64,000 nt of DNA from Caldifarciminota bacterium SM23_42. Lineage in GTDB: Bacteria > Hydrothermota > Tepidihabitantia > SM23-42. A model generated the notes under the pieces. It did not search any database and had not been told where the DNA came from. It saw only the letters and a list, made by a program, of their open reading frames with translations. The position numbers were made by a program, and so were the translations under genes. Shown here piece by piece: positions 24,562 through 64,000 of this stretch. Location: NCBI GenBank assembly GCA_001303785.1, contig LJUJ01000006.1, forward strand, positions 1-64,000, read 5' to 3'. How positions within the stretch are numbered: position 1 is the stretch's first letter; every line of letters starts with the position of its first letter.

Positions 24562-24671
24562 GTACTTTATGAGTATACCACCAGGACTGATAATGCAGTT
24601 GGGTCTGCCAAGAATTTTGTGTCAAAGATGATACGTAGGTAAGCTTGTCTGCTAATCTGACAGTGCAATAA

Positions 24672-24848
24672 TCAAGTGGTCTTATCCGTGCCGCCTGCTT
24701 TTTCCTTTTCTCTCTTTCTATCAAGCCGGACACTGTTGGAACCACACTTGGGACAGGTTCTTTCCTGCATCACTCCCTTGGTGTAGGGCAATTTAAATTC
24801 CGCACCACATCTTAGGCATTTGAAGTCTTTTTCTTCAGTCTCGGCCAT
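24672..24848 (-). CDS. small zinc-ribbon protein, 58 residues
   Basis: ATG at 24848 behind GGAGG, stop TGA at 24672. The sequence carries two CxxC knuckles, CLRCG at 11-15 and CPKCG at 32-36, separated by about 17 residues, followed by a charged Lys/Arg/Glu tail. This is a typical FmdB/rubredoxin-like zinc ribbon, possibly a regulator or an assembly factor. It lies downstream of the four-helix-bundle gene in the same direction, separated by an 8-nt repeat array. Confidence 0.75.
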   Translation of the reverse strand: MAETEEKDFKCLRCGAEFKLPYTKGVMQERTCPKCGSNSVRLDRKREKEKAGGTDKTT

Positions 24849-24869
24849 GAACGCCTCCGGGTATTGGTC

Positions 24870-24957
24870 TTATAGTCTTATGGTCTGATAGTCGTATAGT
24901 TGCATTCGCTTGTGGTCTTATAGTTCTACGGTCGGACCGGCGCATAGTCTTATTGTC
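24870..24957. repeat. 8-nt periodic array, 11 units
   Basis: Eleven consecutive 8-nt units of consensus NNATNGTC (for example TTATAGTC, TTATGGTC, TGATAGTC, GCATAGTC, TTATTGTC), in strict register from 24870 to 24957. The last unit provides the stop codon and the C-terminal Arg-Gln of the four-helix-bundle gene. Same family as 28851-28930 and 31173-31333. Confidence 0.85.
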
Positions 24958-25336
24958 GGGATTTACCTGATTTTACAGATCTGCTGAGATAAGAGATGAA
25001 AGCTGAAATCAGCCGACCCGTTAAACACGCCTGTTCGTATAGTTCGTCGAATTTTTCTGCTGATAGGTAGTCATCATCTAGAGCCGCATAAAGATGATTT
25101 CTGACTTCGCCGCAAGACCTTCGTGCATAATTGAGAAAGTTGATAGATTCTTTGTCGGTACTCGACTCGAACCCCTCTGCGATATTTGACATCACAGAAA
25201 GTGCAGCGTTTCGTATTTGATTGTAGAAGACGATGTCCCGTTTGATATCTGGCCCACGTGTTATTCTACTAACCATTTTCCTTAACGCCCGCGCTTCTTG
25301 CCAGCACTTCAAGTCCTCAAATCTTTTCACCTTCAT
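24950..25336 (-). CDS. four-helix-bundle protein (S23/IVP family)
   Basis: 128 residues. RFEDLKCWQEARALRKMV, then IRNAALSVMSNIAEGFE, then FLNYARRSCGEVRNHLYAAL are the classical signature of the S23-type four-helix-bundle family, first met as ORFs in 23S rRNA intervening sequences and later as free-standing genes near repeats. The start is ATG 25336 behind GGAGG; an upstream in-frame ATG at 25369 lacks one. It sits just after the HdrA1 gene, and its stop lies in an 8-nt repeat array, so it looks like a later insert in the operon. Confidence 0.85.
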   Translation of the reverse strand: MKVKRFEDLKCWQEARALRKMVSRITRGPDIKRDIVFYNQIRNAALSVMSNIAEGFESSTDKESINFLNYARRSCGEVRNHLYAALDDDYLSAEKFDELYEQACLTGRLISAFISYLSRSVKSGKSRQ

Positions 25337-25373
25337 TCGACCTCCACTTATATCTAATGACAAGACCATCCGA

Positions 25374-27791
25374 CTATTTCTTCTTCCGCTTCTCCTCTTC
25401 CTCGGTAATAACCTTTACCGTATGTTCGATTTCATCTTTGGTCACTTTCTTCCTCAGTTCTTCAATATCTTGCATGGTTTTCTGGAATCGCTGTCCCTCA
25501 GCCGCACTTATCCACTCGAGTAGCAACCTTTCGGGTCTGATGCCCCATTTTTCCAATTTGTCCCACAACTTCTCGACTCGCTTCTGAGTCCAGCGATTGG
25601 CATCAATATAGTGGCAGTCAACATAATGGCATCCGGATACGACGACCATCGGAGCACCTTTCTTGAATGCATGGAGAACGAATTTTTCATCGACTCTGCC
25701 GCTACACATGGTTCTGATCAACCGTTGATTGGGGGGATATTGTAAGCGGGCACCGCCGCACGTGTCGGCGCCAGCATAAGAGCACCAGTTACAGGCAAAT
25801 ACAATGACCTTATCGTGAGGGTTCTCCTCGAGATGTGCATCGATCTGGGTAATGATTTGCTCGTCCGTGAAATGCTTCATCGTTAGTGCACCAAAGCGAC
25901 ATTCAGCAGCGCACGTACCACATCCCTTACAAAGAGCCTCAACATAGCTAATCGTCTTCTTCTTCGGGTCTACAGTGAATGCTCCATATGGGCATACCCT
26001 CGCACATGAAGCACAGTAGTGGCATAAATCCGTGTTCAGGGTCGACGTGATCGCCTCGAGTTTTACCTTACCAGCAGATAACAAGGTCTCCGCCCTCGCT
26101 GCTGCGGCACTAGCTTGGGTCACCGAGTCTTTGACGTCCTTCGGTGCTTCGGCACAGCCAGCAAAGTATATGCCCATTGAAGGTGCATCAACCGGTTTCA
26201 ATTTAGGGTGCGCTTCCATGAAGAAACCGTCAGGCGTTTTTGAGAGGGTCAGTAGTTTCTGAACCTCGGGCATGTCTAATCTAGGAGTCACGCCGATTGA
26301 GAGCACCATCATGTCAAATTCATGATCTTCGATTTTGTTTGAGGTAGTATCCTCAACCATGACCCTCAAGTTACGAGTCTTGGGGTCCTCGGTTATCTCG
26401 CCGGGAATGCCCCTTATGTACTGTACGCCTGCCTCTTTGCTTCGATTGAACAAGTCCTCAAAACCCTTACCGAAAGCCCTGATATCGATATAGAATACTT
26501 TTGCCTGTATATCAGGGTAATGATCCTTCAGAAGTAGCGTGTCTTTGATTGTATTCATGCAGCAGATGTTGCTGCAATAGGGTTTGCCGATTTTCTCGCA
26601 GCGGGAACCAACACATTGGACAAAACCGACTGTCTTTGGTCTTTGTCTATCAGTTGGCCGGATGAAGTGTCCATCAGATGGTCCTCCGGCCGACAATAGT
26701 CGCTCAAATTCCATGCTCGTAACGACGTTCTCGTATTTAGTGTATCCGTACTCTTCTAGAATCGTAGGATCGAATACGTCCATTCCCGTTGCCACAATGA
26801 CGGTGCCGACTTTGAACTCGATTGTCTCGTCCTTTGCGTCGTAATCAATACACTTCTTATCGCATTTCTCGGCGCACTTGCCGCAGGCAATTGGATTTGT
26901 GCCGAGACAGCTTTCCATATCGATCAGAGATGCTGAAGGTACGGCTTGAGGGAATGGAATGTAAATAGCCTTTCGTGACGAAAGACCCTGCTGATACTCA
27001 TCAGGGACAACTACAGGGCATACTTCAGCGCAATCTCCGCATGCAGTACATTCGTTTTCGTTTACGTACCGTGCCTTCTTCAGTACCTTAACTTGAAAGT
27101 TGCCGACGTAACCGTGTATCGACTCTACCTTGCTGTATGTTAAGAGTTTTATGTTGGGATGTCGACCGACATCCATCATCTTCGGACCGAGTATTCATAT
27201 CGCGCAGTCCATTGTCGGGAATGTCTTTGCCAGTTGCGCCATGATTCCGCCGAGTGCGGGTTCCTTCTCAACCAAGTATACTTGATACCCAGCGTCGGCC
27301 AAATCGAGTGCTGACTGCATGCCGGCTATGCCACCGCCGATTATCAAAGTTGCTTTTTCTACCAGTATTTCCGTTTCGTCCTGTGCGGCAAGATACCGTG
27401 CCCGCGCAACATATGCCTTCGTAATGTCTTTTGCTTTCTGAGTTGCTGCTTCACGCATTCCCATGTGTACCCACGAACATTGCTCTCGGATGTTGGCCAT
27501 ATCGACTAAATATGGATTCATGCCAACCGAAGAAACGCATTCTCTGAACGTTGGTTCGTGCATACGCGGTGAACAAGCTGCTATAATGACCCTATCTAGC
27601 TTCTGTTCCTTAATCGCATTTTTGATTTCTGCCTGACCGGGTTCTGAGCACATATAGCGATTCTTTGCGGTGTAAACAACATTGCCGAAATTTTTTGCGT
27701 CTTCGACCAATTTATCAACATCAACTGAACCAGCGATGTTGGTACCGCACTCGCATATGAAAACCCCGATCTTGAGATCGTCCTGCGGCAT
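25374..27791 (-). CDS. HdrA-MvhD fusion, selenocysteine-containing (TGA at 27195-27197)
   Basis: 805 residues if TGA is read as Sec199. HdrA is the FAD protein that bifurcates electrons in heterodisulfide reductase-type complexes. In order: HdrA N-terminal domain (FICECGTNIAG; about 5-145), FAD motif IIGGGIAGMQSALDLADAG (about 150-168), FPTMDCAI-Sec-ILGPK, a [4Fe-4S] motif (CTACGDCAEVCP, about 248), VQCVGSRCEK, two further ferredoxin motifs (CHYCASCARVCP; CKGCGTCAAEC), and an MvhD domain from about 660 (FACNWCSYAGAD). The paralogue at 44759-46708 has Cys at the TGA position. ATG 27791 follows AGGGGGTG; GTG 27800 is the alternative. Read without recoding, it would look like a broken gene. Confidence 0.88.
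27157..27174 (-). promoter_or_regulatory. candidate bacterial SECIS hairpin of HdrA1
   Basis: Beginning 20 nt after the TGA, GGATGTC-GGTC-GACATCC forms a perfect 7-bp stem with a GGUC loop. The GG-U loop and the distance fit known bacterial SECIS elements. A matching hairpin lies at the same distance in HdrA2; the Cys-type HdrA3 lacks it. Confidence 0.65.
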
Positions 27792-27819
27792 TTTAATCAC
27801 CCCCTTTCTGGGTAAACTC

Positions 27820-27953
27820 TAAATTCGAAATTCTAAATGCTAAACAATCTCCAAATCCGAAATCCGAATGTTCAAAACTGTGTCTAGCGTATTTTCTTTT
27901 TTGTGCAAATTCGAAATTCAAATCTCGAAATTCGAATTTTTCTGATGTAGAGT
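27820..27953. repeat. degenerate 7-nt AAATTCG-type array
   Basis: Between hdrB1 and hdrA1: repeated words AAATTCG, AAATTCT, AAATCCG, AAATCCG in roughly 7-nt register (27828-27880), an unrelated centre, then AAATTCG-like words again up to the hdrB1 stop. Non-coding. Confidence 0.65.
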
Positions 27954-28838
27954 TCATACTTTTGCTTTATCCTTCATTTTCTCTATAATCTTGTCTGCCT
28001 TTATCCGATGGGTGTGGAGTCCTACTTCTTCCGGCTCCATGCCTTGGGCAAGACCGAGAAGCTGAAACAAATAAATAACAGGTATATTATATGTCTTTCC
28101 TCTCTTGCGAGAAATCATTATCTGCCCCAAATCAAAGGAAGAAAAACATGTTGGGCAGATCAATCCCATACAATCTGCACTACTTGCTTCAATCGATGCG
28201 AATATCGATTCAGTCATATCTAATGGTAGATCTTCATCCATGCATCCTTTTCCGCAGCACAAAAGCTTCTCCTTGTGCTCTACAGGAATCGCACCCATTG
28301 CCGTTATGAAATCATCCAGAATACTCGGGTAGTCTGCATCGTCGACATGCATTATCTGGCTCGGTTTCAATATATGACAGCCATAATGGATCGCGACTTT
28401 TATTTCTTCGAGTGGTTGTTTTACTGATTTTTTCACAACATCCAGACCTAACTCGTCTCTAATGAGAACTACTGCATGACTGACTTTTACTTTTCCCTTG
28501 TATTCTTTATTCACTCTCTTCAGGCGTTTGTTAACTTCGTCTTTGAGTGCTGGATCTTCTTCGAGAGTGTATTGTGTCTCGCGCAGAGTTGAGATACAGC
28601 CCGAGCACATGGTGACCACGTCGAGACCAGTTTCCTCGGCCACGGCAAGATTTCTAGCCGCGATGGTCAGCCACTTGATTTTGTCGCGTGCCTTGAAATA
28701 AATAGGATCGGGACAACATGTGAATCCGTCGACATCCACCAGTTCAACACCGAGATTAGGCATTGTCTTTCTGATTGCTAGTTCCATTTGCGGATATTTC
28801 AGGGGCATCATACAACCCCAGAACGGAATGATCTTCAT
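27954..28838 (-). CDS. HdrB-type subunit (two CCG domains)
   Basis: 294 residues. HdrB carries the noncubane [4Fe-4S] clusters that reduce disulfides in heterodisulfide reductase. Both cysteine-rich CCG domains are intact: WGCMMP...FTCCPDP...CSGC and HYGCHILKPSQ...LLCCGKGC...CPTC. No membrane segment, so it is cytosolic and works with the HdrC just upstream and HdrA1 just downstream. The natural disulfide substrate in a bacterium is unknown. The ribosome site before the ATG is weak. Confidence 0.9.
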   Translation of the reverse strand: MKIIPFWGCMMPLKYPQMELAIRKTMPNLGVELVDVDGFTCCPDPIYFKARDKIKWLTIAARNLAVAEETGLDVVTMCSGCISTLRETQYTLEEDPALKDEVNKRLKRVNKEYKGKVKVSHAVVLIRDELGLDVVKKSVKQPLEEIKVAIHYGCHILKPSQIMHVDDADYPSILDDFITAMGAIPVEHKEKLLCCGKGCMDEDLPLDMTESIFASIEASSADCMGLICPTCFSSFDLGQIMISRKRGKTYNIPVIYLFQLLGLAQGMEPEEVGLHTHRIKADKIIEKMKDKAKV

Positions 28839-28850
28839 GGTCGATTCATC

Positions 28851-28930
28851 CTATTGTCGAATAGTCTTATGGTCTGATAGTCGCATGGTCTCATCGTCGT
28901 ATGGTCTCCTTGCCTCATAGTCTCATTGTC
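28851..28930. repeat. 8-nt periodic array, 10 units
   Basis: Ten 8-nt units in exact register, consensus NNATNGTC (CTATTGTC, GAATAGTC, TTATGGTC, TGATAGTC, GCATGGTC and so on). It fills the whole hdrC1-hdrB1 gap and runs into the hdrC1 3' end, supplying its last codons and stop. Confidence 0.88.
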
Positions 28931-29441
28931 GCTCGTCATTATCTTTGTTGTCCTTTGGTGGTTCTTCCTGGTCAGCTAAGATTTCCTTGAGTTCCTCAAT
29001 GGGTACCGTTCTCAACTCAGGAAGACCCAGTTCTTGTCGTCTTCTGTGAACCGTTGAAGTAACCGTAACACTCAATCCTGTTTGTGCGATGTTCTGTGAG
29101 AGTTTTGCCAGATTCTCAGGTGCGGTTCCTTTTTCCACGGCCATATTCTTTAGCGCGATGATGACTTCTATGGGCCGTACATCCTGTGGACATCGCTCAT
29201 AGCACGAATAGCAGTTTGTGCAGAGCCAGATAGGCGAATCCTTACCGAGCAATTCCTCTTCGGCACCTAACAGTGCTTTCAAGAGGATGACTCGAGGGTT
29301 GAATTCGTCAGTAAAGCGAGCCGCCGGGCATATTGCTACACATGCACTACATTGATAGCAGTAGTTATGATGTTTTCCGCCCTGGACTTTATTGAGTTTG
29401 TCCCTGAACCGGTAATTTACTACGATTTTGTCCTTAGCCAT
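28923..29441 (-). CDS. HdrC-type iron-sulfur subunit
   Basis: 172 residues from ATG 29441. Two [4Fe-4S] motifs, CYQCSACVAICP near 28-39 and CTNCYSCYERCP near 80-91, as in HdrC, which relays electrons from HdrA to HdrB. A longer frame from 29486 is built of repeat sequence and was not used. The C-terminus is acidic and hydrophilic and ends in Glu-Arg-Gln derived from the 8-nt array. Confidence 0.88.
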   Translation of the reverse strand: MAKDKIVVNYRFRDKLNKVQGGKHHNYCYQCSACVAICPAARFTDEFNPRVILLKALLGAEEELLGKDSPIWLCTNCYSCYERCPQDVRPIEVIIALKNMAVEKGTAPENLAKLSQNIAQTGLSVTVTSTVHRRRQELGLPELRTVPIEELKEILADQEEPPKDNKDNDERQ

Positions 29442-29459
29442 AAATCTCTCTGAGATAAA

Positions 29460-29580
29460 TACCAAATAACAAGCACCAAACTTCAAACAAATTCATAAAT
29501 TCCAATCTACCAAAACTTGAAATTTGGATATTGGGATTTATTTGTGATTTGGAATTTGAAGTTTGGATTTTGCGGTTTGT
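29460..29580. repeat. inverted two-arm array of 7-nt-like words
   Basis: The gap between the hdrD-like gene and hdrC1 is a degenerate array in two opposed arms: CCAAACTTCAAA at 29476-29487 is matched by its exact reverse complement TTTGAAGTTTGG at 29555-29566, and neighbouring words (ATTTGG, AATTTGG) also mirror. It could fold into a long imperfect hairpin in RNA. Confidence 0.7.
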
Positions 29581-29582
29581 AA

Positions 29583-30737
29583 TCATTTGTCTGTTTCCTC
29601 TATAAGATCGGCGATGAACGTAACGAGCTGGACCGTTTCAATCTTAGATTCTTTGCCCGCTCTTTCGTCTTTCATCGCGCAATTGAAGTGGATTTCGCAT
29701 TTGGGGCAGGAAAGAACAAACAGATCCGCCTCGGTTTCTTTCGCTTCTTTCAGACGCGCGAGTTGGATGCTTTTTGAGTAGGTCGAACAGTTCATCCATG
29801 CGCTCACTCCGCAGCATATTGCACGATTCTTATTTCTCGTCATTTCATTGAATTTTATATCCGGTACCGCGGCGATAGCGTTTCTGGGTTCATCGTATAT
29901 TCCCAAGTGCCGGCCCAGCCGGCAGGGATCCTGGAAGGTCACGACTTTGTTAAAATTCTTGAGCCTTATTTGTTCATTAGATATCGCATCGCTTATTATT
30001 TCGGTAATATGTGCTACCTCAATATTGAAACCAAAGTATTTTGGATAATCGACCTTAAATGTTCTATATCCCTCAGGGCAAGAAAAGATTATTTTCTTTA
30101 CACCAGACTGCTTGATCTCGTTAATATTATGTTCGGCCAATTTCTTGAAATTCTCAAAATCACCGCCCCAGAGAAGGTCATGTCCGCAGCAACGCTCTTG
30201 AGGCAAAACCACTGGTGTTATACCTAAGTGGTTCAGAATCTTGATGCTCGCCTTTGCGGCCTTCAGGGTGTTGACTTCTATGTCGCTGAATAGGGTGTCA
30301 AAATACGGCAGACAACCCACGAAGTAGAGGACATCACCAGACTCAGCAGTCTTCAGCTCATCGTCGATCCAGGCCATGCGTTTTTGCTCCAGGTCCGGGG
30401 AAGTCATTATACGCATCAGGGTTTGTGCAGCACCGCCGTGTGAGCACATGGCTTCCTCGCCGATTTTCTGGGCTTCAAGGCGTGTTGCTAGAGTCAAATC
30501 GATATACTCGATCCCAGCCGGGCACCGCTCATCACAGAGCTTACAGGTTAAACATGCCCAGATATTTTTGTCTTTTAATAGATCGAGGTCGTCACTACGT
30601 ATTGCCTTGTTGACGAGTACCCGCGGTGAATACCCGTGATTGAAGCGTGAAACCGGGCACGAACCAGTGCACTTGCCGCACTCCATGCAGAGATAGGCTC
30701 TGGATGCCTTGATGGCCGCTGATATGTTGCTAATCAT
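29583..30737 (-). CDS. HdrD-like iron-sulfur oxidoreductase (4Fe-4S plus two CCG domains)
   Basis: 384 residues combining an HdrC-like N-terminus (CMECGKCTGSCP and CLTCKLCDERCP) with two CCG domains (VGCLPYF...ERCCGHDL...SCPEGY; QDPCRLGR...AICCGVSAW...SCPKCEIH). This is the architecture of HdrD and related Fe-S oxidoreductases, a soluble thiol/disulfide or membrane-quinone-linked electron carrier. In the first CCG domain the last motif is CPEG rather than CxxC, so that cluster may be altered. It overlaps mvhD1 by 8 nt. Confidence 0.83.
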   Translation of the reverse strand: MISNISAAIKASRAYLCMECGKCTGSCPVSRFNHGYSPRVLVNKAIRSDDLDLLKDKNIWACLTCKLCDERCPAGIEYIDLTLATRLEAQKIGEEAMCSHGGAAQTLMRIMTSPDLEQKRMAWIDDELKTAESGDVLYFVGCLPYFDTLFSDIEVNTLKAAKASIKILNHLGITPVVLPQERCCGHDLLWGGDFENFKKLAEHNINEIKQSGVKKIIFSCPEGYRTFKVDYPKYFGFNIEVAHITEIISDAISNEQIRLKNFNKVVTFQDPCRLGRHLGIYDEPRNAIAAVPDIKFNEMTRNKNRAICCGVSAWMNCSTYSKSIQLARLKEAKETEADLFVLSCPKCEIHFNCAMKDERAGKESKIETVQLVTFIADLIEETDK

Positions 30738-31200
30738 GTGTCTTTTCCGCTTTCAAGTTATCTAAGGTTTTCTTTCTAATCTGCGACGGTCCGAGCTTCC
30801 TGATCGTATCGGTGAATTCCTGAGCAACCCTCGCGAATTTTGAGGCCTCCGCAGAGGAGATCCAGTCGAGCTTGAGGCGTTCTTTCTCAATGCCTAGCAT
30901 TTCGGTGAGTTTCTCGGTTATCTTGTGCACGTCAGCAGCCTTTCGAGCCCCGAACATGTAGTGGCAATCTTCAAAATGGCAGGTAGCAACCAAGACCCCA
31001 TCGGCACCTAGCTCGAACGCCTTTAGCACAAAGGCTGGCGTAACGCGACCCCCGCACATCACCCTTACGATTCTGATGTTGGTCGGATATTGAAGCCTTG
31101 CGACGCCGGCACCGTCGGCGGCTGGGTAAGAGCACCAGTTGCAGCAAAAGGCGACGATTTTCGGTTCGAACTGCGTAGTCTTATTGTCTGATGGTCTCAT
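30730..31200 (-). CDS. MvhD-type [2Fe-2S] subunit
   Basis: 156 residues. FCCNWCSYPAADGAGVARLQYP, MCGGRV and CHFEDCHYMFG are the MvhD/FrhD-like cysteine motifs. MvhD carries electrons between a donor module and HdrA. The same fold is fused to HdrA1 and stands next to HdrA3. The ATG at 31200 lies inside the 8-nt repeat array, and the first nine residues are array-encoded; GGAG is 11 nt away, so initiation may be inefficient or begin nearer residue 10. Confidence 0.85.
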   Translation of the reverse strand: MRPSDNKTTQFEPKIVAFCCNWCSYPAADGAGVARLQYPTNIRIVRVMCGGRVTPAFVLKAFELGADGVLVATCHFEDCHYMFGARKAADVHKITEKLTEMLGIEKERLKLDWISSAEASKFARVAQEFTDTIRKLGPSQIRKKTLDNLKAEKTHD

Positions 31201-31333
31201 GGTCGTATCGTCTCCGTGTCTTCGTTTCTGACCATGAGACTATAGGGCCATTCGACTATAGGACTATAGGGTAATCCGACCATCCGACTATAGAACAATC
31301 GGACTATCGGACTATAAGACAATCCGACTACTG
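31173..31333. repeat. 8-nt periodic array in two opposed arms
   Basis: Left arm 31173-31228: seven 8-nt units, NNATNGTC-like (TTATTGTC, TGATGGTC, TCATGGTC, GTATCGTC). Right arm 31230-31333: thirteen units of the reverse-complement type GACNATNN (GACCATGA, GACTATAG, GACTATAG, GACCATCC, GACTATCG). TCATGGTC at 31197-31204 and GACCATGA at 31230-31237 are exact complements. It fills the hdrA2-mvhD1 gap to within 2 nt of the hdrA2 stop. Confidence 0.88.
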
Positions 31334-31335
31334 TG

Positions 31336-34300
31336 CTATGCACCAAAAAGCGCCTCCAACTGAGCCTCGATCTGTTCACTCCTGAAGTGTTTCAGGTCGA
31401 TCGCACCGGTAGGACATGCCGCGACGCAGGTTCCACACCCTTTGCACAGTGCTTCGTTAACTTGCGCAACGAAAACACCCTTTTCCTTCTCGACCAATTC
31501 TATTGCACGGAATTCGCACACCTCAGCGCACCTGCCACATCCTCGACAATACTCTTCGATAACCGTCGAGGTTATCGGCGCCAGGGTAATCTTATCCCGG
31601 CTGAGCAGTGCTGCAACCTTGGAAGCCACGGCTGATGCTTGAGAGATCGAATCCCCGATGTCCTGCGGGAACTGACAACAACCACACAAGAAGACACCCT
31701 CAACCGTTGTCTCCACCGGACCGAATTTCGAGTGACGCTCCAAGAAGAATTTGTCTGGACCACGTGGTACCTTGAACAACTCCGAGAGGCGGGCTGAATC
31801 GGCAGCCGGTACCATACCCACAGAGAGCACAACGAGATCAACCGGGATGGTGATGTTCGCGTCAATGTCGGACGAGGGAATTGTAACGGCTTTGACCTTA
31901 TCCGTGCTCGTGATTTCTGGCTCTCCCTCGTACGGTAAGAAGAGAACGCCCAGTTCTCGTGCCTTTCGGTACATCCGCTCGGCGCCTTTGGAATAAACCC
32001 TGACGCCGCGGTTGAGAATCGCGACATCGATCCCTTTTTCTCTTAAGTGAATCGCTTCCTTTATCGCTGCTTGGCAGCAATAGCGAGAACAACCAGGGTT
32101 GCCGTCGTCACCCCTTGAGCCGATACATTGGAAAAAAACAACGGATTTCACGTGTTCAATATCGCCCGCTAGTATTTCTTGCTCTAACTCCATATTGGTT
32201 ATGACATTCGGGAATCGACCGTAGCCAAAGCGCTCGCCTGGGTCATACAGCTCTGATCCGGTGGCGAGTACAATAGCGCCCACCGTGAATTCACGTTCTT
32301 GTGCTTTGATCTTCACCTTGACCTGGAAATTGCCGACATAACCAGTAACATCGATAAGCTCGGCTGACGTCAGGAGTTCACCACCCGCACTATTGAATTC
32401 ACTGATCAGTTTCTCTATGATCTCTTTCCCTTTTTTGAAACTTGGATAAATACTGGAAAGATTACGCACAAGACCACCTGATACTTCCTTCTTTTCGATG
32501 ATCTTGACATTAAAACCGCGAAGCATTAAATCAATTCCACAGCGCAGGCCAGTGATGCCAGCGCCAATGATAGCAACATCTCGGTTAACCGGGAGCTCTT
32601 TCATGAAGAGGGGACCGAGCTTTCGGACGCGCGCCACCGACATTCTTACCAATTCTTTTGCCTTCTCGGTTGCCTTTTCTGGTTCTCGCTGGTGTACCCA
32701 GGAGCATTGGTTTCTGATGTTCGCAATATCAAAAAGGTACGGGTTGAGACCAACTGCAGTCAATGAATCCTGAAAGCTCATCTCATGTGTCTTAGGCGTA
32801 CAGGCGGCGACAACGACTCGGTTCAGTTTATGTTCGGCTATCCGTTCTTGAATCTGATGTTGTGATGTTTCAGAACAGGCAAAAGTATGTTCCTCAGTGA
32901 ATACCACATCCGGCAATGTCTTGGCATATTCGACGACGTCTTTGATATCAACAACCCTTGAAATATTCGGTCCGCAATGGCAAACAAAGACACCGACGCG
33001 CGGCGGGCCGGAAACATCAACCTGTTCGATTTCTTTTTCCTCGATCGGAAGTTCGTGGCCCTCTAGAAAACATGCTGCCTTCGCCGCGGCACCGCTTGCC
33101 TCGGCGATCGAATCGGTAATGTCCTTAGGGCCTGTGGCACAACCGCATACCATAATACCGTTTTTCGTTGACTCGAGCGGTCTGATTGCTGGCTCGACGT
33201 TCTTGAAAAAACCATCATCGTCAGTTTCAACGCCGAGCAATTCGGCTAATTCCTTGCACCCTTTTGAGGGAATCAGCGCCGAAGAAAGGCATACCGCATC
33301 AAATGTCATTTCGCTAGAGCGTCCCTGCTCATCTTCATAATGGATGACTAAATTTCCCTGATCATCCTCGATGACCTTTGATGGTTTACCCCTAACATAT
33401 CTCACACCCTTTTCGAGTGACCGATTATAGAATTCTTCAAACCCTTTTCCAAAAGCTCTGATATCTATGTAGAATACTACTATGTTCGCATCAGGATAGT
33501 GCTCTTTCAGGACCAGGCTATCCTTGATTGTGTTCATACAACAGATGCGACTGCAATAGTTGATGTCACGACGCATATTGCGCGAGCCGACACACTGGAT
33601 GAATGCAAAACGCAGCGGTCCTTCCAGTTCTTTGCCCAGAGGAAGTTCTCCACTGCTCGGGCCATCTTCGCTCATGATTCTCTCGATCTCAAAAGATGTA
33701 TAGATGTTTTTGAAGCGCCGGTATCCGTACTCACTTGCTTCCCTGGGATTAAGATAGTCGACACCCGTCGTAACGACGATCGAACCCACATCCAAGTCAA
33801 CGAATTCATCCACCATGTCGTGAACGATGGCATTTGGTTCACAGGCCTTAACGCATTCGAGGCACTCTGCACAACCGGCGCAGCTGAGACATCGGGCTGC
33901 TTCGCGTTTGGCCTGGTCTTCGGAAAAGCCTTGGGCGACTTCTTCGAAACCCTTTTTTGCTTTCTCCACATCGAGTAAAGGCATCTCGGTTCTTTTCTCA
34001 GTCCCTGTGTCCTCCGGAATCTCGATATCTTCATCCTTGACCCGAGCATCCCGTTTTTTCCTGTTCTTTTTCAAGTCCACACCCCTGATGAATCGGTCGA
34101 TCGATTCCGCAGCTTCTTTTCCGGCGGCAATCGCCTCGATTATTGTTGCTGGTCCAGTAACCGCATCGCCACCGGCAAAAATACCGGGTATGTTTGTCTG
34201 CAGTGTATCAGGGTCCACGGCGAAGGTCCCCCACCTCGTCAACTCGAAGCTTTCTTCTTTCGTTAGAAACGAGACATCGGCCGCCTGGCCAATTGCCATT

Positions 34301-35760
34301 ATTACCATGTCCAAATCGATGGTGAATTCAGAGCCCTCGATGGGTATTGGTCGCCTTCGGCCCGAAGAGTCAGGCTCGCCGAGCTTCATCTTTATACACT
34401 CCATTCCTGTGACCTTACCGTCTTTGCCGAGTATCTGTGTCGGATTGGTCAAATAATGAATTTTTATCCCCTCTTTCTCTGCCTCGACGATCTCCTCTTC
34501 GTTCGCGGGCATTTCTTTGCGCGAGCGGCGATACACGACAAACGCCTCTTCGGCGCCGAGACGCAATGCGGTGCGAACCGCATCGATTGCTGAATTCCCG
34601 CCGCCGACCACGGCCACCCGTTTACCTACCGGGATACTCGATTCACGGACGACATTCTGGAGAAACTCGACACATAGTACTACACCCTTCAAATCCTCAC
34701 CATTGATGCCCATGGCTTTTTCCTTGGCCGCGCCTAACCCGAGAAAGATTGCCTTGTAATCCTTTGCGAAGAGATCTTTGATGCCAAAGTCCTTGCCCAA
34801 GACAGTGCCCGTCTTGATCTCGACACCCCAGCTCTTTATGTAATCCAAGTCACGCTGTAGTGCCTTTTCTGGTAATCTGAATCGCGGTATTGCCCAGTAC
34901 AGTAGTCCCCCGGGATGATCCGTAGCCTCGAAAACCGTTGAACAGTATCCTCTCTTGGCAAGAAAATATGCGACAGACAATCCTGCTGGTCCGGCGCCAA
35001 CGACGGCGACCTTCTCTTTGTTCAATTCGGGACTCGGCTGTGGGAGCTCGGGTTCCTGATCAGATATGAAGCGCTTGAGCTGAGCAATGGCCAGCGGTTC
35101 ATCCACGTCTTTGCGCTTACAGTCCGATTCGCAGGGATGGGTGCATACACGCCCGCAGACAGCCGGGAATGGATTATCCCTGCGTTCGAGCTCCAGAGCT
35201 TCTTCGTATTTGCCCTGTGAAATGAGCGCGATATACCCCTGAGCATTGACTCCTGCGGGACAGGCATATCGGCAGGGCGCCGCGCCCTTTTTGTCAATAA
35301 GGAATTTGTTAGGAACTGCCTGGGGATACTGACGATATATTGCTCTTCGTTTTGAAAGGTCTAATTGAAACTCATCATTGACTTGCACCGGGCACACCGT
35401 TGGACATTCGCCGCATCCAGTACATTTGTCCCAGTCGACAAATGTGGACTTGCGCTTAACCTTCACTCGAAAATCAGGTGCTTCTCCCTCGACGCTAATC
35501 ACTTCGCTATTGGCGAGGATTTCGATGTTAGGATGCCGACCGACATCCATCAGCTTAGGACCGAGGATTCAGCTAGTGCAATCCATCGAGGTGAAGATTT
35601 TGTGAATCTGGGATGTCCGACCGCCCAGGCATGGGCCACGTTCGACAAGGAAGACCTTGAACCCGGCATTGGCCAAATCCAACGCGGACTGAACCCCAGC
35701 TACACCTCCACCTATGACGAGTGCTCCTTTTGGCATAGTATCCTTCTGTTCCTTGTTCAT
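31336..35760 (-). CDS. giant HdrA-GltD-like-HdrA fusion flavoprotein, selenocysteine-containing
   Basis: 1474 residues if the TGA at 35569-35571 is read as Sec64. In order: FAD motif [19 protein letters not shown] (13-31), MDCTS-Sec-ILGPK, [4Fe-4S] [12 protein letters not shown] (about 115), an inserted glutamate-synthase-small-subunit-like module (about 160-570) with [32 protein letters not shown] and [15 protein letters not shown], then the rest of HdrA (VQCVGSR-like FIQCVGSRN), and a second HdrA from about 930 ([25 protein letters not shown]; terminal motifs [11 protein letters not shown] and [11 protein letters not shown]). It probably links NAD(P)H to Hdr and ferredoxin. ATG 35736 behind AAGGA is an alternative start. 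Confidence 0.85.
35531..35548 (-). promoter_or_regulatory. candidate bacterial SECIS hairpin of HdrA2
   Basis: Starts 20 nt after the TGA, as in HdrA1: GGATGTC-GGTC-GGCATCC, a 7-bp stem with one G-U pair and the same GGUC loop. The A-to-G difference from HdrA1 keeps the pairing. Part of the likeness may reflect the conserved peptide VGRHPN. Confidence 0.63.
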
Positions 35761-35761
35761 G

Positions 35762-36325
35762 TTAATTCTTTTGCGAATCGCCTTGCCTTTTCACGGCCTC
35801 GAGTCCATAATTGTAGCCGCGATCGAATGCCTTCAGGTTCAATTCCAGGGCTTTTTCGGGAACCGATTCTGGCAAAGCCTTTTTCATTGCATCATAACTG
35901 ACGACCCCTGTGATCGCGGTGAAGAATCCAAGCATGACCACATTGGCAACGATTTTATGGCCCAATTCTTCAGCAAACCGCGTTGCCGGTATGGCATGCG
36001 CCGCAATGTGTCCGCGCGACTGCTTGGGCTTCACAAGATCTTCATCGTACAGTAACCTTCCCTGCTCACTCATTTCCGGCTCAAACTTATCATAGCCGGC
36101 TTGTGACATGGCAACCAGAATGTCGGATTCCGTAATATACGGATATAACACTTTGCTCTCGGAAACGACCAATTGTGAGCTACATGCACCACCGCGTGCT
36201 TCGGGCCCAAATGATTGGCTCATTGTTGCGTGCTTGTTGTCATAGATTGAAGCTGCCCTTCCTGCAATAATTCCGGACCTGATGATGCCCTGACCTCCAT
36301 AACCTGCAAATCTGATTTCAGCCAT
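35762..36325 (-). CDS. 2-oxoacid:acceptor oxidoreductase, gamma subunit
   Basis: 187 residues from ATG 36325 behind AGGAGG (an upstream in-frame extension to 36490 lies inside the previous gene). [25 protein letters not shown] and [13 protein letters not shown] are the gamma-subunit signatures of the pyruvate/2-oxoglutarate:ferredoxin oxidoreductase family. It follows two alpha-beta pairs with no second gamma, so it may serve both. It stops 1 nt before the HdrA2 start, suggesting tight coupling of 2-oxoacid oxidation to the giant HdrA. Confidence 0.88.
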
Positions 36326-63663: not shown

Positions 63664-63696
63664 CCGAGCTAGGCTGGACTTAGACAGGAAGAAAAA

Positions 63697-63736
63697 GAGA
63701 CAAGGGGACGGGGAGACGCGGAGACATAGGGACAAG
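63697..63736. repeat. 8-nt periodic array, GRGACNNN units
   Basis: Five 8-nt units in register (GAGACAAG, GGGACGGG, GAGACGCG, GAGACATA, GGGACAAG) just after the last gene. Same period as the arrays at 24.9, 28.9 and 31.2 kb but a different word. Confidence 0.75.
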
Positions 63737-63805
63737 GCATAAAATCGTCCGATAGATCAGACCAAAATACAACTTCGGGTTGGTTCACCTTCGTTCATAC
63801 ATAGC

Positions 63806-63937
63806 ATGTCAGGTGATCAGTGTATCAGTAAGCAGAACATCAGCAGATCAGGATACGCTACTCGCTCGGCACTGCACATTTTGTTCCTGATGTGCTGGAG
63901 CTTTGATATTCTACCCGCTGGTATTCTGATATCCTGA
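63806..63937. repeat. 8-nt array in two opposed arms (TCAG / CTGA)
   Basis: Left arm 63806-63853: six exact 8-nt units with TCAG at the same place in most (ATGTCAGG, TGATCAGT, GTATCAGT, CATCAGCA, GATCAGGA). Right arm about 63883-63937: the reverse-complement word, CTGA, in roughly 8-nt register (GTTCCTGA, TATTCTGA, TATCCTGA). No coding sequence was seen from 63664 to the window end. Confidence 0.75.
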
Positions 63938-64000
63938 TCCGCCACACGGTGTACAGATAGATTGTCCAAACTCTATCGGGACATGCGAGCCTATCGAGAA

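Follow-up and report, generated by a model that had tools for sequence, protein, structure and literature searches.

Our analysis indicates that the array at positions 28851-28930 (minus strand) of the window, the 64,000-nucleotide stretch of DNA analysed in this study, is very probably an arm orphaned from an IVS-like S23 element, which is small and apparently mobile. The complete form of such an element comprises an S23/IVP (PF05635) gene of about 120-140 codons placed between two degenerate tandem arrays. The units of these arms are 7-11 nt long, each S23 subfamily having its own word and unit length, and the two arms are usually oppositely oriented. The closest named relatives of the source genome belong to candidate division WOR-3 / Ca. 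Stahlbacteria, and the array lies within an hdr operon, between hdrC (4Fe-4S; 28923-29486, minus strand) and the downstream hdrB (CCG domains; 27954-28838, minus strand).

Read on the minus strand, the array consists of the units GACAATGA GACTATGA GGCAAGGA GACCATAC GACGATGA GACCATGC GACTATCA GACCATAA GACTATTC GACAATAG, which can be summarized as GACNATNN with positions 4, 7 and 8 free. The spacing is exactly 8 nt over all ten units (12, if two weak ones extending to 28835 are counted), as an earlier note on this DNA had described for the hdrC-hdrB gap. Bases are identical at lag 8 in 47 of 72 positions, compared with a mean of 19.4 and a maximum of 33 in 5000 mononucleotide shuffles, and a mean of 20.1 and a maximum of 38 in 5000 dinucleotide-chain shuffles. 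Both sets, a comparison with shuffled sequence which the note itself had named as able to refute its claim, rule out chance as the source of the periodicity. Among all 80-nt stretches of the window, those at 28853 and 31251 share the top lag-8 score, those at 24865 and 31169 come next, and all four of these stretches carry the GACNATNN word. When the scan was extended to the source genome (the window and about 235 kb outside it, with 66 kb of contig C13 masked; about 233 kb unmasked), a clear excess was found only for periods of 7, 8 and multiples of 8, and shuffled sequence gave none.

The variation between units, which had been noted as unlike that of a slippage microsatellite, is confined to fixed columns. 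Over 160 GACNATNN units, collected in the hdr regions of nine genomes, information content is 1.24-1.76 bits in the core columns and 0.18-0.25 in columns 4, 7 and 8, although the loose core match used for entry favours the core somewhat. By these column values the array departs from slippage microsatellites, whose units are near-identical and whose changes are not restricted to fixed columns. Nor do other classes of repeats describe it well. CRISPR arrays are built of repeats of some 20-50 nt with unique spacers between them, whereas the units observed here are 8 nt long and contiguous. STRRs have a 7-nt unit, although 7-nt families are also present in the window. The array is flanked by hdr genes and not located in a 23S rRNA helix, and an Rfam search of positions 24600-36000 produced no match. 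It contains no ORF, and with its units in one orientation it is unstructured as RNA (-7.2 kcal/mol), which rules out a hairpin formed by this array alone. The hdrC reading frame closes with ...CGA CAA TGA inside the first minus-strand unit, so that the last two codons and the stop (R-Q-stop) are supplied by the array, in agreement with the earlier description. At present the array is probably a passive relic, which provides hdrC with its stop codon and separates it from hdrB by an 84-nt spacer.

In three genomes of the same genus only a few nucleotides, and no array, separate the end of hdrC from the start of hdrB; the junction in the window is about 90-100 nt longer. Since the two genes nearly abut in these relatives, sequence comparison identifies the array as an insertion. 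Compared between species, the whole array is either present or absent. The corresponding junction of another genome (G018) is occupied instead by an inverted TATCAGNN pair, which, together with the empty junctions of the same-genus genomes, implies that different arrays come and go between hdrC and hdrB. TATCAGNN is a second real array family of the source genome, and it surfaced through a pattern that had been chosen as a search control. One of its arrays is located near the right end of the window (63807-63939) and has the word of S23 loci L196 and L211; a neighbouring GGAGACA-like array (63678-63738) has a word that is also found beside S23 locus L200.

The hdr operon carries further arrays. 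Heptamer arrays of the AAATTCN family occupy the hdrB-hdrA gap (27814-27939), with a word similar to that beside an S23 gene of the same genome (G000:C5:11309), and another array of this family lies at 29519-29577 (minus strand). The hdrA2-mvhD junction contains an inverted pair with a left arm at 31173-31220 (minus strand) and a right arm of about 13 units at 31230-31341 (plus strand), which together fold with -62.7 kcal/mol; G025 and G013 have an S23 gene at this junction, the window arrays without a gene. A separate observation concerns the HdrA genes. Both contain a single in-frame TGA within the same motif (DCAI*ILGPKM and DCTS*ILGPKL), at 27195-27197 (minus strand) and at the equivalent codon just before 35550, and in the relatives examined the hdrA1 copy is divided into its two halves at this very point. 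This suggests a selenocysteine HdrA.

The owner of the GACNATNN word lies in the same operon, 4 kb from the focal array. It is an S23/IVP four-helix bundle gene (24950-25369, minus strand) which matches PF05635 (E 4e-28), TIGR02436 (E 7e-26) and PDB 2gsc (E 4e-7), the latter being the X. campestris protein XCC0516, to which its product is related. Downstream, a 3' arm of 12 GACNATNN units, some of them decayed, extends over 24862-24957 (minus strand) and overlaps the end of the ORF. Upstream, about three units in the opposite orientation (25356-25379, plus strand) are what remains of the 5' arm. The earlier note had recognized the same word at 24870-24957 and proposed a dispersed family. Both points were borne out, but the gene flanked by this word had been overlooked, as had the comparable arrays with other words which adjoin other S23 genes. 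The focal array and the 3' arm have an exact stretch of 23 nt in common, and no more than 15 nt is shared exactly with any of 21 further arrays, taken from the source genome and from others; in a null model, 0.3% of arrays assembled from randomly drawn units reach at least 22 nt. A single-sequence AlphaFold model of the S23 protein has four helices (mean pLDDT 54) and is too poor for a fold search.

S23 genes with the GACNATNN word occupy hdr junctions of three genomes (G025, G013 and G018), and in G022 one lies next to an hdrA-like gene; four such genes from four genomes form a single clade on the protein tree. Among the loci read in the array-bearing genomes G006, G010, G020, G008 and G021, no S23 gene of this clade was recognized. 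Five of the other GACNATNN matches of the source genome are not intergenic; they lie in frame in paralogous genes (C13:42191 and 46513, C33:12475 and 19526, C38:5304; loci L023, L024, L040, L030 and L052). These in-frame arrays sit in paralogous C-terminal domains resembling FlgD-like/sorting domains (GRLVRQWDYPTxRLSD), some of which are preceded by linkers with arrays of other words (TATCAG, GATACAT), and they may have been turned into coding sequence.

The association between S23 genes and arrays extends far beyond this word. PF05635 genes of WOR-3, Cyanobacteriota, Bacteroidota, Neomarinimicrobiota and Gemmatimonadota commonly stand between degenerate tandem arrays with a period of 7-11, usually in opposite orientation and with a word particular to each gene; in the source genome and ten relatives we observed many words and periods of 7, 8, 9, 10 or 11. 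When the upstream flank was aligned with the reverse complement of the downstream flank, 73 WOR-3 S23 loci had a mean Smith-Waterman score of 17.1, compared with 9.8 for 409 control ORFs, and a score of at least 20 was reached by 33% of the former and by none of the latter. Orthologous loci and their words are not independent in these flank statistics, a dependence that is addressed in part by thinning to less than 50% identity, after which 18 of 33 S23 loci and 1 of 409 controls scored at least 16 (Mann-Whitney p 2.6e-10). The score of upstream flanks paired with their own downstream flanks was equalled or exceeded in 8 of 2000 permutations of this pairing. In a joint-word score, 65% of 82 S23 loci, with words differing by locus, lay above the best of 150 control genes, and about 28% fell under the 95th percentile of the controls, as loci that have decayed or diverged or that have no array. 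Unit length changes 9 times on the S23 protein tree, compared with 21.0 times in shuffles (0 of 200 as low), a clustering to which near-copies contribute. Upstream arms were richer in purine than downstream arms at 37 of 45 loci, gene starts having been called by simple rules.

The same architecture was found around plasmid-borne S23 genes of Nostoc, Calothrix, Aulosira, Picosynechococcus, Geminocystis, Anabaena, Stanieria and Riemerella, with G-rich heptamers adjoining the genes on Nostoc and Calothrix plasmids. Two of 11 genomes reached through loci contained S23 loci, and one of these two, from Neomarinimicrobiota, displays this architecture. Some arms are direct or one-sided, and arrays of mixed or direct orientation accompany S23 genes of Gemmatirosa and Pseudanabaena; the arrays of the Pseudanabaena gene (L271), (AAAAGCT)n and (AAAAGCC)n, are long, almost perfect and directly oriented. 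Several WOR-3 genera also have an S23 gene inserted between one and the same pair of tRNA genes (L176, L177, L178 and L168), with ATGGCTT-type heptamers at three of these loci. Since S23 elements occupy junctions between mostly co-directional genes, often at the stop codon of the upstream gene, they are probably transcribed together with the operon.

Comparison of occupied and empty sites revealed that the S23 gene and its arrays enter operon junctions as one unit. In Picosynechococcus PCC 7003 an S23 gene with GGAGATAA-type arms separates cas10 from cmr3; on pAQ6 of PCC 7002, whose flanks are 93% identical, these genes are about 12 nt apart, with neither S23 gene nor array. On two Nostoc plasmids, S23 elements that differ in their word occupy adjacent junctions of one operon, each plasmid being empty where the other is occupied. 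In these comparisons S23 was the sole gene content of the inserts, and no target-site duplication was clearly readable at the reciprocal Nostoc sites or at the copies in G013. One orthologous junction of WOR-3 genomes, between hdrA1C and the zinc-ribbon gene, presents all the stages: a complete S23 element (the source genome and G018), inverted arms without a gene (G023 and G025), a single array (G010), a remnant (G007) and nothing (G001). It is the single-array stage that the focal array represents, although the stages carry no set order and could reflect either loss or stepwise gain. Two genomes are distinctive in the distribution of the word. In the 3.1-Mb genome G025 all 23 strict GACNATNN matches fall within about 7 kb of the hdr operon (L147, G025:C41:87055-94121), which is a hot spot for these arrays. 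G013 has 190 strict matches genome-wide (L160-L166), with many inverted pairs of about five units per arm whose unit orders recur, and which resemble a proliferated MITE-like derivative.

Other origins of the focal array were considered. Its fixed core with free positions is what might be expected of a cis-regulatory array of the hdr operon, bound as DNA or mRNA by a host regulator or by S23, and the concentration of the GACNATNN family in the hdr operons of several genera, above all in G025, points the same way. We nevertheless regard this as unlikely, because the location of the arrays within the operon varies, the three same-genus operons have none between hdrC and hdrB, the word is scattered across the whole genome of G013, and S23 genes in the vicinity of tRNA, CRISPR and nrd genes are bordered by comparable arrays of other words. 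The stricter version, in which the array has a regulatory role only, was dropped, since its position is not conserved. The numerous similar inverted elements of G013, and the fact that PF05635 has no known catalytic domain, would also suit a MITE/BIME-like repeat that depends on an unrelated transposase for its movement and often carries S23 along as a passenger; this seems quite unlikely given that unit length follows the S23 phylogeny and that inserts hold only S23 when compared with empty sites.

Array-only sites are common, and the same junctions may hold an S23 gene in another genome, as would be the case if the arrays were pre-existing repeats serving as insertion targets for S23 genes and the focal array were an unoccupied target. 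This is very unlikely, considering that the empty sites of PCC 7002, Nostoc and the WOR-3 genome G001 are devoid of the array as well as the gene, and that the word tracks the S23 clade to different junctions. A decayed slippage microsatellite is strongly disfavoured, to the point of being hardly credible. The array is tandem and in a single orientation, and individual units could stem from slippage, but three free and five conserved columns recur alike in the 160 units from several genera, and neither the inverted pairing nor the link with S23 would be expected of such a process.

Under the S23-element reading, the pentameric S23 protein probably binds its own units, and each protomer may plausibly contact one of them. 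The specificity of word and period, the fixed spacing and the reported homopentameric torus of XCC0516-type S23 protein (PDB 2gsc; PMC4990558) are the grounds for this suggestion, and such binding would yield fixed spacing and a conserved core with free positions. In RNA, the arms could pair into a stem that RNase III might cut as in 23S IVSs; inverted array pairs fold into long imperfect stems of -18 to -63 kcal/mol (absolute energies). To our knowledge, PF05635 has no catalytic activity or domain, and movement of the element would require a catalytic partner. By analogy, a reverse transcriptase acting in trans is a candidate, because Avd, the accessory protein of DGRs, has a related four-helix bundle fold (structure 4DWL has been compared with the PF05635 structure 2GSC) and is a partner of reverse transcriptase (PMC10053308).

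The elements resemble in several respects the 23S rRNA IVSs of Coxiella, Leptospira and Brucella, whose S23p-bearing forms have complementary ends and undergo RNase III excision (PMC4990558). A PF05635-type ORF in sense orientation within a probably co-transcribed element is common to both, complementary ends recur at many S23 loci of WOR-3 and cyanobacteria, and in Coxiella tandem heptamers (GACAGAT), variable in number between strains, precede the S23p ORF within terminal inverted repeats (PMC4990558). In contrast to these IVSs, the elements described here occupy operon junctions outside 23S rRNA, their arms are degenerate arrays of greater length whose words are specific to the subfamily, and gene-less and single-arm forms are dispersed. 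RAYT/REP systems combine an HUH-type TnpA gene with REP palindromes. In them, too, a protein gene is accompanied by dispersed repeats that belong to one family with it and by non-autonomous inverted intergenic pairs (REPINs, BIMEs), but S23 has no recognized transposase domain, and tandem arrays take the place of a single 20-40 bp palindrome. Intergenic heptamers with fixed and free columns, (GGGANTN)n, are also shared with STRRs, known from Calothrix and Nostoc, and with the GGGAATC and GGGGA(C/T)T arrays of Xanthomonas/Nostoc; the Xanthomonas arrays include 70 and 75 inverted pairs, and none of these families is connected with a protein in that paper (PMC4692102). The TAACTGA repeats of Beggiatoaceae are heptamers as well, described as lying just upstream of start codons and proposed to act with a post-transcriptional regulator; their units, however, are identical, and no link to S23 is stated in the abstract (PMC4679880).

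Apart from the Coxiella heptamers, we found no link in the open-access literature between PF05635/S23/four-helix-bundle genes and dispersed tandem arrays, and the novelty of this association is therefore provisional. S23 elements were also observed inside CRISPR operons (L246, L270 and L271), between cas10 and cmr3 and, with different words, between cas6 and cas4 in Anabaena and Pseudanabaena, and a CRISPR figure legend names 23S rRNA IVP among its domains (PMC10910872). S23 genes in cas operons may be inserted elements and not CRISPR components, and the occupied cas10-cmr3 junction of PCC 7003, empty in PCC 7002, is a warning for guilt-by-association surveys. As both are research strains, this pair makes the S23-element reading directly testable.

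To conclude, S23, a large protein family of unknown function, gains a candidate role, that of a reader of its cognate array, together with a genomic context. It is quite possible, and we propose it tentatively, that S23 genes mark a class of mobile elements of wide distribution, with a pentamer reading its own array at one 7-11 nt unit to each subunit, that many of the dispersed arrays of heptamers and octamers so far unexplained (cyanobacterial STRRs, Xanthomonas GGGAATC, WOR-3 octamers) represent their arms or non-autonomous derivatives, and that rRNA IVSs are the special case of insertion into 23S. This would trace back to one origin the short-repeat families that have been described independently from cyanobacteria, Xanthomonas, Coxiella and candidate phyla. 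That five bacterial phyla share this architecture suggests that such elements are a source of many unexplained short repeats in bacterial genomes.
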